A stretch of 54,301 nt of DNA from Bacteroidia bacterium (lineage in GTDB: Bacteria > Bacteroidota > Bacteroidia > AKYH767-A > OLB10): assembly GCA_020847635.1 (NCBI GenBank), contig JADLBQ010000075.1:1-54301 (forward strand), given 5' to 3'. Positions 12,505 through 35,088 of this stretch are shown piece after piece (the first letter of the stretch is position 1; each line of letters starts with the position of its first letter). Position numbers and translations under genes: made by a program. Below the pieces are notes generated by a model. The model was not told the DNA's origin. It saw only the letters and a list, made by a program, of their open reading frames with translations, and ran no database searches.

Positions 12505-14073
12505 CTATTTAGCAATATTAACTGCACGCGTCTCGCGGATTACTGTTACGCGAACCTGACCGGGATAGGTCATTTCGTTCTGAATCCGCTGGGCAATATC
12601 AAATGACATGGTTTCTGCCTGCTTATCATCAACTTTTTCACTTTCAACAATCACACGCAATTCTCTTCCGGCCTGGATAGCAAATGCCTTTTCTACACCT
12701 TTATAGCTTATAGCCAGTGATTCAAGGTCTTTTAACCGCTTAATATACTGTTCTACAACTTCACGTCTGGCTCCGGGCCGGGCACCTGAAATTGCATCAC
12801 AAACCTGAACAATCGGAGATATCAGGCTGGTCATTTCAACTTCGTCATGATGCGCACCAATAGCATTACACACTTCTGGATTTTCCTTATGTTTTTCGGC
12901 CAGTTTCATGCCTAAAAGAGCATGTGGTAATTCCGGCTGATCATCAGGAACTTTACCAATATCATGCAACAGACCGGCTCGTTTAGCCAATTTTGTATTC
13001 AGACCCAACTCAGCCGACATAATTGCGCATAAGTTAGCCACTTCACGGGAGTGTTGCAAAAGATTCTGACCGTAAGAACTGCGGTATTTCATTCTGCCCA
13101 CCATCCGGATGAGTTCCGGTGCAAGTCCGTGAATTCCCAGATCAATACAGGTTCGTTTCCCGGTTTCAATAATTTCATCTTCCAGTTGCCTGCGCACTTT
13201 ATTAACCACTTCTTCAATACGGGCCGGATGAATCCGCCCATCGCTAACCAGCTGATGCAATGCCAGCCGAGCCAACTCCCTCCGGACAGGATCAAATCCT
13301 GAAAGGATAATTGCTTCGGGGGTATCGTCCACAATAATTTCGATTCCGGTTGCTGATTCCAAAGCTCTGATATTTCTTCCTTCCCGACCAATTATCCGGC
13401 CTTTCACATCATCATTTTCAATATTGAATACAGTAACAGAATTTTCAATTGCCTGCTCTGTAGCTACCCGCTGAATTGTTTGAATGACAATTTTTCTGGC
13501 CTCCTTATTTGCAGTGAGTTTTGCTTCTTCAACCATTTCCTTGACAGCAGCCTGGGCATTGGTCTTGGCTTCTTCCATCAGTGCTTCAACCAGTTGTTTC
13601 TTGGCATCTTCCTTTGACAGTCCGGAAATTTTTTCAAGCGCTTCCACCTGTTTTTCATGCTGACGGTCTAACTCTTCTTTTCTTTTCTCAAGAACTTGTA
13701 AATGGTTTTTGTAATTCAACTGCAGTTGTTCAGCTTCATTCTGTTTGCGCTGCATTTGCTCCATCTTTTGCGAGAGATTCTGCTCCTTTTGTTTGATACG
13801 GTTCTCAGCAACACTGATTTGCTTCTCCTTTTCCCTGACGGACTGTTCATGTTCTTGTTTCAGTTTATAAAAGCGGTCCTTTGCCTTCATTTCCTTGTCT
13901 TTCAGCAATACTTCTGCTTTTGCTTCGGCTTCCTTTATAATAGCGTTTGCCCTCTCAGCGGCTGCCTGTTCTCTGGCTTTATTTGACTTTCGGGTCAGTA
14001 CCCAGGTAATTGCAATTCCGAGAATCAGTGAGGATGCTCCTACAGCTATGAGTAATATAAGTTGTTCGTTCAT
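12505..14073 (-). CDS. rny: Ribonuclease Y
   Basis: 522 residues, the usual length. A membrane-anchored endoribonuclease that initiates mRNA decay. Domain order is complete: an N-terminal transmembrane helix (residues 5-25), a long Glu/Lys/Gln-rich coiled coil (about 30-200), a KH RNA-binding domain ([15 protein letters not shown], about 226-240) and an HD phosphohydrolase domain with HSREVANL and the catalytic HD in [11 protein letters not shown] (about 368-378). It follows zapA and the candidate 6S RNA on the same strand and precedes wecB by 12 nt. Confidence 0.96.
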
Positions 14074-14199
14074 TTCAAATATGTTGAGAATTTAAATTAA
14101 TACCAATAGATGAATTCAAAGATCATTGTTGGATAGAAAGTTGGCAATTGCACCAGGCAAATATTAAGTACCGGAATTTCCGGATTAACCGACAGATAT

Positions 14200-14410
14200 A
14201 AAAAAACCCGCGATCAATTCTGCTGTAATTAAACCCCAGATAAGAAGGGCGGAGATGCCGGAAATTTCTTTCTTCTGCTGTTGAACTTTCATTCAATCCA
14301 TCCGTGCCAGGCACGGAGATATGCAGCCTGAAATCCACATCCTTGAGCTTGTCTCCTTTTTTGATTTGTGTTGAGTTTAAAACATGATCAGAATCTACGC
14401 GGGTTTTCTT
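14200..14410 (-). ncRNA. ssrS: Candidate 6S RNA (ssrS-like structured RNA) between zapA and rny
   Basis: The 397 bp between zapA and rny hold a long rod-like fold on the minus strand. A 13-bp closing stem pairs 14410-14398 with 14212-14200 (AAGAAAACCCGCG with CGCGGGTTTTTTT, one G-U). After a 3x4 internal loop, 14394-14389 pairs with 14222-14217 (ATTCTG/CAGAAT). After an 8x6 bubble, 14380-14373 pairs with 14236-14229. Further in are a GATG/CATC plus TTTC/GAAA helix and an apical hairpin CCGTGC-CTG-GCACGG. The 3' arm ends in seven U, as in an intrinsic terminator. The 211-nt length and single interrupted hairpin match 6S RNA, which binds housekeeping RNA polymerase. Linkage of 6S RNA to zapA is well known in gammaproteobacteria. 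The fold and position are seen directly; the family name is inferred. Confidence 0.55.
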
Positions 14411-14470
14411 ATTTCATCTGCCAGATCAACCCCAGCCGATGAGAAAATCCATTTACTAATTAAAGAACGT

Positions 14471-14764
14471 TTACAATGAAGAAATAAACTTGCCCAGCAA
14501 TGAATTTGCTTCGTCCAGTTTTGCCAGGTCAGTGTCGCTAAACTTGTCCGAATTATTTCCTTTGGAAGCTTCTGTTGCAAAATAAAGAGCCGTCATGGCA
14601 AGTAAATCACGCATATCGGTATTCTCATATCTTGCTTCATATTCCTGCAGCCGCTCATTCAATTTACGGGCAGCTTCCTTCACAAATTTCTCTTCTTCTT
14701 TTGATACAAGTGTTTTGTATTCTCTCTTGCCAATCTGTACCTTTATAGAAACCTGGTTATTCAT
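14471..14764 (-). CDS. zapA: Cell division protein ZapA
   Basis: 97 residues. ZapA binds FtsZ and cross-links protofilaments at the division ring. The N-terminal part (VSIKVQIGKREYKTLVSKEE) is the family beta-beta motif with the Y-x-L pattern. It is followed by EEKFVKEAARKLNERLQEYE and a helical C-terminal half that dimerises. It lies 13 nt downstream of the coiled-coil gene and upstream of the candidate 6S RNA and rny, a gene order I associate with Bacteroidota. pheT, often the next gene upstream in this phylum, is not here. Confidence 0.88.
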   Translation of the reverse strand: MNNQVSIKVQIGKREYKTLVSKEEEKFVKEAARKLNERLQEYEARYENTDMRDLLAMTALYFATEASKGNNSDKFSDTDLAKLDEANSLLGKFISSL

Positions 14765-14777
14765 TGTTGACTTTCAT

Positions 14778-15080
14778 TTACTGATGCATCATGGTCAGGC
14801 ATTTATCAATCTCGTTAATAAAATGATTAAGTTTCATCTTCAGATCACGGGTGTTCTGATCGGCAACCGTATCTGTTCCCAAGGCCTGTCCCAATCTTAA
14901 TGCTTTATTAATTTCTTCCTGCTTTTTCAGATTTTGTTTTAATTCGTTATTTTGTTTTACAAGTTTGTCATTTACAGATTGTAATTTCAGGTTCTCATCG
15001 GCCAGAAATTTGTAGAGGCTCATCAGTTTTTTTGTTCTGGCATTCAACTCTGCTGCCATTGAAACCTGCTTGTTTACCAT
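14778..15080 (-). CDS. Small coiled-coil protein upstream of zapA
   Basis: 100 residues, no signal peptide and no membrane segment. Residues about 20-62 (LYKFLADENLKLQSVNDKLV and the following Lys/Asn/Gln-rich stretch) form an uninterrupted heptad pattern. A short C-terminal helix ends in LTMMHQ. Position directly before zapA suggests a division-related role, by analogy with the small coiled-coil proteins found at this place in other Bacteroidota. That role is inference. It is the first gene of the unit and has its own promoter. Confidence 0.78.
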   Translation of the reverse strand: MVNKQVSMAAELNARTKKLMSLYKFLADENLKLQSVNDKLVKQNNELKQNLKKQEEINKALRLGQALGTDTVADQNTRDLKMKLNHFINEIDKCLTMMHQ

Positions 15081-15098
15081 AATCTCCTTATTTCAGAG

Positions 15099-15132
15099 CA
15101 AAACTAATCAATTTAAAATTTAATTTGTCAAA
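15099..15132 (-). promoter_or_regulatory. Promoter of the coiled-coil/zapA unit
   Basis: TTTG at 15132-15129, a 22-nt spacer and TAGTTTTG at 15106-15099 on the minus strand. The -7 box is a perfect TAnnTTTG 18 nt before the ATG at 15080. Confidence 0.5.
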
Positions 15133-15179
15133 TGTGGTTAAAAATTATTCACTCTCCTGATAGGATAGTATCCAAAGTC

Positions 15180-15187
15180 CATCTTTG
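15180..15187 (+). promoter_or_regulatory. -7-like box of the M23 peptidase gene
   Basis: CATCTTTG, one mismatch from TAnnTTTG, only 6 nt before the ATG at 15194. The shared string ATCTTTGCAC also sits just before the pruA start. Confidence 0.35.
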
Positions 15188-15193
15188 CACTGA

Positions 15194-16888
15194 ATGCAGC
15201 TGATTAAAGTTTATTTAACAGGCCTTTTTCTACTTTCAGCCTCATTGGGAGTATCTCAAAACTTATTTATAAATCCTTTACCCGTTGAACCAATCCTGGC
15301 AGGTACGTTTGCCGAAATCAGAACTAACCATTTCCATTCAGGGATAGATATTAAGACCAATGAATCAGAAGGGCTTCCGGTTTCGGCAGCTGCTGATGGA
15401 TTTATTAGCCGTCTTAAGGTGAGTGCTTCTGGATTTGGGAATGTGTTGTATATCCAGCACCCTGGTGGTTATACAACCGTTTATGCTCATCTGCATCACT
15501 TCAATGATACTCTCGAAAAGATTGCTGAAGCAGAAATGATCCGTAGGCAAAGTTTTGAATCAGAGCTTTTTTTTGAACCCGACAGACTGGAAATTAAACA
15601 AGGTGAACTCATAGGATATTCGGGAAATACCGGTGGAAGTTCTGGACCTCATTTGCATTTTGAAATCCGGGATTCGAAAACCGAGTATCCGTTGAACCCG
15701 ATGGACCTGGGGTTTTCTGTTAATGATTCCATTCCTCCGGTGATCCAACAAATAATGGTTTCGGATTTTCTACCTTTTAATGAATCCTACTACCCGGTAA
15801 ATCAGACAATCATTGAAACCGGTTCTGCCCGATATGATTCTGTTTTCAGTGATACTGTTTCTATCTGTGGAATGGCTGGCATAGCCGTAAATGTGATTGA
15901 TCAGATGGATTCATCATCTTCTAAGCTTGGAATTAAAGAAATTCTGTTATTGTCTGGATCAGATACCCTTTACCGTTATACCGTTAAAAAGTTTGGTTTT
16001 TCTGAAACCCGGTATGTGAATGCGGTCATTGATTACGAAAAACTGATTACCGAGAATAAAATTTATATTCTTTTATACCTGCTTCCAGGTAATCGTCTCT
16101 CAGCACTCTATCCCTCATCAAAAAAAGGATTCATCCGGTTAAATGATCGTCTTTCTCACGAATTCAATATCCGGGTAAAAGATGAGTCCGAAAATGTATC
16201 TGAAAAAAAAGTCTGGCTGAAAAAAACAGACCTTCCCGTTGAAGAATTGAAACTAAAAGAAAACTGTTTTATTGCCTTTAACAAAAATCCAGTGGCTGCT
16301 GACGAATTCGCCAGAATTGACTTCAGCGGTACACCGGTAACTTACAATATCCATGACTTTACTTTTATGACAAAAGACAGCTTAATCTCAAAATATTCTA
16401 AATTCGTTTCAGCAGGCGATGAGTCCATCCCGGTTCATACTCCATTCAACCTTTCAATAAAAATATCAGCTCTTGACGAAAGGCTCACTCAGAAAGCAGT
16501 TATTGTAAAATGTGACTCCACTGGTCTGGTTGGTTCCCTTAACGGAAGCTTAAACAGCGGGTGGCTGTCTGCAATGTCACGTTCTTTTGGAAATTTTTAT
16601 ATTGATATTGACACCGTTGCTCCAGTTATTCAATCAGAAGGGGTATCTTTTGATACATTATGGATGAAACAGAAGTTAACCTATATTCTCACTGACAACT
16701 TATCAGGCATCAACCAGTATCAAATGTTGATTGATGGTAAATGGGTACCGGCCCGGTTTGATGCAAAAAGCGGGAAGCTGACCTACCCGGTTCCGGAAGG
16801 TACCCCGAGTGTAAAACGATCTGTTGAAATTATTGTGACAGATCAGAAAGGAAACCGGAATACCCTAATCGAACAATTCATCTTTTAA
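15194..16888 (+). CDS. M23 family metallopeptidase (LytM-type cell wall hydrolase or regulator)
   Basis: 564 residues with a signal peptide (cleavage near SLGVSQ, residue 21). The catalytic domain sits unusually near the N-terminus. HFHSGID (46-52) supplies the first zinc His and Asp, VYAHLHHF (96-103) the general-base His, and GPHLHFEIRD (151-160) the HLH motif. All zinc ligands are therefore present and the domain should be active on peptidoglycan cross-links. Residues 75-165 are split by an insertion (about 105-135). The remaining 400 residues are beta-rich, including a segment resembling an Ig-like or cadherin-like fold near the end (TLTYPVPEGTPSVKRSVEI region). The fucP-like gene follows after 38 nt. 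Confidence 0.88.
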   Translation: MQLIKVYLTGLFLLSASLGVSQNLFINPLPVEPILAGTFAEIRTNHFHSGIDIKTNESEGLPVSAAADGFISRLKVSASGFGNVLYIQHPGGYTTVYAHLHHFNDTLEKIAEAEMIRRQSFESELFFEPDRLEIKQGELIGYSGNTGGSSGPHLHFEIRDSKTEYPLNPMDLGFSVNDSIPPVIQQIMVSDFLPFNESYYPVNQTIIETGSARYDSVFSDTVSICGMAGIAVNVIDQMDSSSSKLGIKEILLLSGSDTLYRYTVKKFGFSETRYVNAVIDYEKLITENKIYILLYLLPGNRLSALYPSSKKGFIRLNDRLSHEFNIRVKDESENVSEKKVWLKKTDLPVEELKLKENCFIAFNKNPVAADEFARIDFSGTPVTYNIHDFTFMTKDSLISKYSKFVSAGDESIPVHTPFNLSIKISALDERLTQKAVIVKCDSTGLVGSLNGSLNSGWLSAMSRSFGNFYIDIDTVAPVIQSEGVSFDTLWMKQKLTYILTDNLSGINQYQMLIDGKWVPARFDAKSGKLTYPVPEGTPSVKRSVEIIVTDQKGNRNTLIEQFIF

Positions 16889-35001: not shown

Positions 35002-35088
35002 CGGAGAGAGAGGGATTCGAACCCCCGTTCCGGTAAACCGGAAAACAGATTTCGAGTCTGCCGCATTCAACCACTCTGCCATCTCTCC
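35002..35088 (-). tRNA. tRNA-Ser(CGA)
   Basis: 87 nt on the minus strand. The acceptor stem GGAGAGA pairs with TCTCTCC. The anticodon arm GCAGA-CTCGAAA-TCTGT gives anticodon CGA (codon UCG). A long variable arm (TTCCGG-TTTA-CCGGAA), required for a serine tRNA, and the T-loop GGTTCGAATCC are present. CCA is not encoded. No other tRNA lies nearby. Confidence 0.95.

Follow-up and report, generated by a model that had tools for sequence, protein, structure and literature searches.

What does the gap between zapA and rny encode in the genome of this Bacteroidia bacterium? In the window, the 54,301-nt stretch of contig JADLBQ010000075.1 analysed here, the two genes are separated by 397 bp, and both lie on the minus strand, which is therefore the transcribed strand of the gap as well. 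The gap measures ~210-470 bp in most relatives. The original prediction assigned an interrupted hairpin in this gap to 6S RNA, pointing to zapA as a known neighbour of 6S RNA genes, and the gene order zapB-zapA-6S is indeed documented for beta- and gammaproteobacteria (PMC7641849, which also gives the background on 6S function). The locus is arranged as follows.

12505-14073, minus strand: rny (ribonuclease Y), with Pfam RNase_Y_N, KH_1 and HD; downstream neighbour of the 6S RNA
14200-14406, minus strand: the ~206-nt RNA assigned here to 6S (gene ssrS), matched over the full length of model R1 (see below) at 14201-14406; fold z -4.4
14471-14764, minus strand: zapA (Pfam ZapA, E 7e-14)
14778-15080, minus strand: small gene preceding zapA, resembling zapB in position and length

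The small gene at 14778-15080 had no Pfam match; a small gene preceding zapA is also conserved in relatives.

A rod-like RNA with a conserved bubble

The minus strand of positions 14198-14413 folds with -67.3 kcal/mol as opposed to -47.9 ± 4.4 kcal/mol for 200 dinucleotide shuffles (z -4.40), none of which was as stable, whereas the plus strand of the same region folds more weakly (z -2.64). The minimum free energy (MFE) structure consists of a closing stem of 15 bp, a small internal loop, a 7-bp helix, a bubble, more helices and a branched distal arm, with the apical hairpin CCGUGCC/GGCACGG and a U7 tail at 14206-14200. This rod-like succession of closing stem, central bubble and distal arm is a defining feature of 6S RNAs. 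The hairpin of ~211 nt, its strand, coordinates, anatomy and seven terminal U had been described correctly within a few bases, and the closing stem was likewise recognized; its length, given as 13 bp, proved to be 15 bp in the MFE structure and 14 pairs in the consensus drawn from covariation. Both the centroid and the comparative structures contain the second helix, UAAACUC/GGGUUUA, part of which is paired otherwise in the MFE structure. The parts of the RNA, from its 5' to its 3' end, are listed here.

14389-14404, minus strand: 5' arm of the closing stem, ACCCGCGUAGAUUCUG, from the fold; helix 1 of the covariation analysis
14373-14379, minus strand: 5' side of the second helix, UAAACUC; helix 2 of the covariation analysis and conserved block
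14357-14372, minus strand: 5' strand of the central bubble, starting with AACA(C), from the fold and the bubble comparison
14352-14356, minus strand: 5' side of the helix beyond the bubble, GGAGA, from the fold; helix 3 of the covariation analysis
14251-14255, minus strand: 3' side of the helix beyond the bubble, UCUCC, from the fold; helix 3 of the covariation analysis
14238-14250, minus strand: 3' strand of the central bubble, from the fold and the bubble comparison
14230-14237, minus strand: 3' side of the second helix, GGGGUUUA, from covariation and the bubble comparison
14207-14222, minus strand: 3' arm of the closing stem, CAGAAUUGAUCGCGGG, from the fold and the covariation analysis
14200-14206, minus strand: U7 run after the closing stem, terminator-like, from the sequence

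Comparison of 36 sequences supported this architecture. In a 49-pair consensus structure derived from these same sequences, 88.5% of the cells were paired, as opposed to 31-55% after the partner strand had been slid by 1-3 columns, and compensatory changes, counted as at least one change on both sides, were found in 41 of the 49 pairs. The covariation score was 0.409, compared with 0.186 ± 0.008 for shuffled data. Covariation in the closing stem, named beforehand as the point on which the prediction could fail, was present, with 96.8% of cells paired and changes on both sides in 11 of 14 pairs, counts that are favoured by the alignment used (A3), which had been fitted to the 22 pairs of model R1, the closing stem included. 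The second helix and most of the distal arm are absent from R1's pairs, and double changes occurred in four of the six pairs of the second helix. A purely sequence-based alignment (A2) showed compensatory changes in 12 of 20 predicted pairs.

The block AAACUCAACA, at the place expected for the 5' strand of the bubble, is among the most conserved and is common to 6S-Flavo RNAs. Across families, the half of this block that lies in the helix changes together with its partner (AAACUC/GGGUUU, GAACC/GGUUC), and YAACA just inside the bubble is kept in most sequences.

Homology to recognized 6S RNA families

No 6S family was reported for the window at the Rfam gathering threshold, nor for the gap in a permissive scan. 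Failure to reach a gathering score is a test of model sensitivity and not a biological defining feature; as Rfam reported no 6S RNA in the window, the identity of the RNA had to come from its relatives. Weak matches to BTnc005, Tombus_5 and snoRNAs in the Rfam scans were at chance level, and a match to RF01685 in the same genome (E 8.25), elsewhere than the gap, was rejected. The sole Rfam match in the window at the gathering threshold is a tRNA with a long variable arm (35002-35088, minus strand).

Across 198 phylum genomes, the 20 best matches to RF01685 (6S-Flavo; E 8e-22 to 1.5e-6) were all found directly upstream of rny, and at many of these loci zapA, or the small gene that precedes it, could be detected. 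The canonical 6S model, RF00013, matched one of 41 relatives exactly in the zapA-rny gap, over its full length and below the cut-off (E 6.2e-5), and, in a permissive scan, a second family member in the same gap, also full-length and sub-threshold. RF01693 (Bacteroidales-1) matched two further relatives in this gap, below its cut-off.

We built a covariance model, R1, from 29 orthologous gaps, leaving out the window, the 6S-Flavo loci and any Rfam member. R1 matched the window with 131.8 bits (E 6.9e-36), and the genome contained no other independent match better than E 0.2; a weaker match on the plus strand is the mirror of the same hairpin. R1 recovered all 20 RF01685 loci (E 7e-9 to 5e-19) and, at E 0.01 or better, matched 45 of 61 relatives and 64 of 148 phylum genomes, with rny located within about 20-210 nt 3' of the 6S RNA in most of the phylum-wide matches examined. 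R2, a refinement of R1 with the 49-pair structure, matched both loci that lie above the RF01693 cut-off, over the full model. An Rfam scan of the R1 matches in other families gave no 6S family at E 0.01. Both the conserved position beside zapA and the covariance-model homology to recognized 6S families are features that the RNA shares with 6S RNAs.

Identity of the RNA and alternative explanations

Position before rny, covariation and covariance-model homology are independent pieces of evidence, and all of them support the originally predicted 6S identity. We conclude, with a probability of roughly 0.95, that positions 14200-14406 on the minus strand constitute an ssrS gene, encoding a divergent 6S RNA of ~206 nt that is a homologue of the known family. 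Transcripts of 6S RNA have been reported in F. psychrophilum (PMC9723704), and 6S RNA together with pRNAs in B. thetaiotaomicron (PMC7366714).

Two readings without 6S RNA have to be weighed. Within an operon, a closing stem with a GC-rich end and a U7 run behind it is what an elaborate intrinsic terminator or attenuator setting the expression of rny and wecB would look like, with no trans-acting RNA involved, and the gaps of two relatives, L068 and L076, hold only a short terminator-like hairpin devoid of a 6S body. However, the conserved bubble motif, the second helix and the distal arm would be superfluous for a terminator, and in other lineages the same RNA stands alone, away from rny. Moreover, relatives of genus g6 have kept the closing stem and lost the U-run, from which it follows that termination is not the sole role of the stem. 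We therefore regard a mere terminator as very improbable, while the 6S RNA may terminate transcription in addition. A structured trans- or cis-acting RNA of another kind, located by chance in the 6S position, could explain why the direct Rfam scan of the window lacked 6S, but R1 and R2 tie the window to the RF01685 and RF01693 loci, and RF00013 matches members of the family over its full length, so that such a coincidence is extremely improbable.

A 71-aa open reading frame with a GTG start (14123-14338, minus strand) was rejected as a protein-coding gene, as inspection of its orthologues revealed lengths varying by non-multiples of three while base pairs were kept. A dispersed repeat was ruled out by the single strong copy in the genome.

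Several relatives depart from the common form. In genus g6 (L021:2305-2467, L022, L026, L028), the 6S RNA is short (162-169 nt) with one distal hairpin, and the U-run after the retained closing stem is replaced by GAGCUUC, so its 3' end must arise some other way. The hairpin of L068 and L076, of the CCCGCAUU type, lies in the zapA-rny gap where relatives have 6S RNA and is possibly a remnant of the closing stem. Four genomes of genus g5 in the family of the window (L007, L008, L009, L011) have neither 6S RNA nor boxA in this gap, and a search of g5 genomes with R1 and R2 for a moved 6S gene gave no convincing match. Judging from these genomes, the g5 6S RNA is lost, moved or diverged beyond recognition, and would be dispensable or unrecognizable there.

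Predicted function

6S RNA, typically an abundant small transcript that peaks in stationary phase, occupies the housekeeping holoenzyme of RNA polymerase and is freed by pRNA synthesis, which in 6S RNAs starts at about the place of the AAACUCAACA block. By analogy, the bubble of the RNA described here would mimic an open promoter, so that the RNA would occupy the housekeeping sigma-RNA polymerase holoenzyme during slow growth and would be released when the polymerase copies the 5' strand of the bubble into a short pRNA. The predicted template is UAAACUC (14373-14379) with the adjoining CAAC, and the pRNA is predicted to start with 5'-GUUGAGUUU (or GUGUUGAGUUU), opposite the conserved CAAC.

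A boxA-like motif after the zapA stop codon

A second conserved element is located between zapA and the 6S RNA.

14460-14469, minus strand: putative boxA-like element CGTTCTTTAA, 1 nt past the zapA stop codon

Allowing up to one mismatch to CGTTCTTTRA and no more than 60 nt between match and zapA stop, we found the motif in 31 of 38 zapA-6S gaps as opposed to none of 14 zapA-rny gaps without 6S RNA, and in 0.5% of base-shuffled segments. The co-occurrence of motif and 6S RNA gave a Fisher p of 7e-8, which overstates the case because the genomes are related. Several of the seven misses come down to the calling of the zapA stop, masked bases or a variant motif. Motif and 6S RNA are jointly absent, in separate instances, from genus g5 in the family of the window, from G030, although both are present in its congener G027, and from several families of the class. 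The motif also precedes the 6S match in L128-L156.

The rRNA leader before 16S and the 16S-23S spacer are the usual places of boxA, an element that binds NusB/S10 and counters termination by Rho. The assembly of the window has no 16S gene, and the rRNA comparison rests on two relatives from its order, G038 and G035; both carry the core GTTCTTTGA at two places, ~105-110 nt ahead of 16S and, within the 16S-23S spacer, behind the tRNA-Ile/tRNA-Ala pair. The corresponding stretch of the window, GTTCTTTAA, agrees with the published boxA consensus GYTCTTTAANA at 10 of 11 positions (PMC5725501). A match to the core, and the same motif in the rRNA leader and spacer of the lineage, are what is expected of a boxA.

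Could the motif instead be a processing site, a site for another protein or part of the 3' end of zapA? We consider this possible, at slightly less than even odds. The exact 10-mer was not enriched genome-wide, its copies being no commoner than those of a reversed control, so that the boxA claim stands on position and co-occurrence; no Nus-factor data were found for the phylum; and the motif drifts in Flavobacteriaceae to GTTCATTACATA and CGCTCTTTACATA. Nor was a boxA visible in other families of the phylum where the 6S RNA nearly abuts zapA, which limits the claim to the order of the window and neighbouring families. On the other hand, the recurrence of the core at the rRNA genes of two relatives and the fit to the published consensus argue for boxA, its absence from all 14 gaps without 6S RNA argues against a mere feature of zapA, and the varying distance between the motif and the 5' end of the 6S RNA (about 18 to 106 nt) is ill-suited to a fixed processing site or promoter.

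Promoters and a model of expression

Upstream of the zapB-like gene, a candidate operon promoter was identified by its match to the consensus; it is the sole full match of the Bacteroidota type on the minus strand from 13900 to 15350.

15132-15099, minus strand: candidate operon promoter TTTG-22-TAGTTTTG

A search directly upstream of the 6S RNA revealed no promoter. Among 6S genes linked to zapA or rny, none of 67 had TANNTTTG within 60 nt upstream, compared with 5 of 11 unlinked ones. This difference suggests co-transcription of linked 6S genes with zapA, and several moved copies seem to have a promoter of their own. Five loci with 6S RNA away from zapA and rny (L192, L193, L113, L116 and L199) carry an exact TATATTTG box 10-21 nt upstream, and in L192 the 6S gene comes after dnaJ. 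An unlinked 6S RNA in G052 (L159:1999-2161) has nevertheless kept GTTCTTTGAACATA at a distance of 25 nt upstream, within a called ORF that may be spurious.

In the window, a zapB-like/zapA/6S transcript starting near 15090 would yield the 6S RNA by processing or termination. The boxA-like element at the zapA stop might help the polymerase through the untranslated 6S segment, for which we see about an even chance, and the simplest reading, a hypothesis about equally balanced between true and false, is that it does so by shielding the polymerase from Rho in this stretch. More generally, we propose, with the odds evenly divided, that throughout much of the order of the window and in neighbouring families 6S RNA is carried untranslated on the zapB-zapA transcript and depends on a boxA located at the zapA stop codon. 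The polymerase would be escorted through the 6S gene by the rRNA antitermination complex, which would couple the supply of 6S RNA to the availability of Nus factors and S10, while several lineages with a moved 6S gene would use a promoter of its own.

If the boxA reading is true, a regulatory non-coding RNA would join rRNA, suhB and CRISPR arrays as a target of rRNA antitermination, which would suggest how a non-coding gene can sit within a translated operon. None of the literature that we searched reports a boxA ahead of 6S RNA, and the boxA study that provides the consensus states that non-coding RNAs were not considered (PMC5725501). The 6S assignment itself fills a hole in annotation: what looks like a single 6S RNA throughout the phylum is split up or overlooked by Rfam, and R1 and R2 unite RF01685, RF01693 and unannotated copies. 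The assignment also shows that the zapA-6S linkage reaches from Proteobacteria to Bacteroidota.

Comparison with known systems

With 6S-Flavo (RF01685; PMC2864571), the RNA in the window shares its place before rny, the closing stem with the U-run and AAACUCAACA. However, the window is not matched by the Rfam model, which spans 108 positions, and the RNA in the window is longer and has a branched distal arm. Bacteroidales-1 (RF01693), described by Rfam as "6S-Bacteroidales RNA suggested", is linked to the window by the R2 matches to both loci above its cut-off and by its own sub-cut-off matches to two relatives of the window. Unlike the gene in the window, that of Bacteroidales-1 is a solitary gene downstream of dnaJ that has a TATATTTG box of its own and lacks a boxA-like motif. 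The canonical 6S/SsrS RNA (RF00013) resembles the RNA in overall architecture, in the zapB-zapA-6S order and through its full-length matches to two family members, but the RNA in the window has diverged too far for the Rfam threshold, and its downstream neighbour is rny instead of ygfA/FAU1 or EVE.

As for boxA elements of rRNA and suhB (PMC5725501) and of CRISPR arrays, which set a precedent outside rRNA (PMC7862264), the motif in the window likewise has the core GTTCTTTAA/GA and precedes a structured RNA that is not translated. It differs from them in lying where a protein gene ends, at the stop codon, and in preceding a 6S RNA. This association with boxA is the part that could be new.
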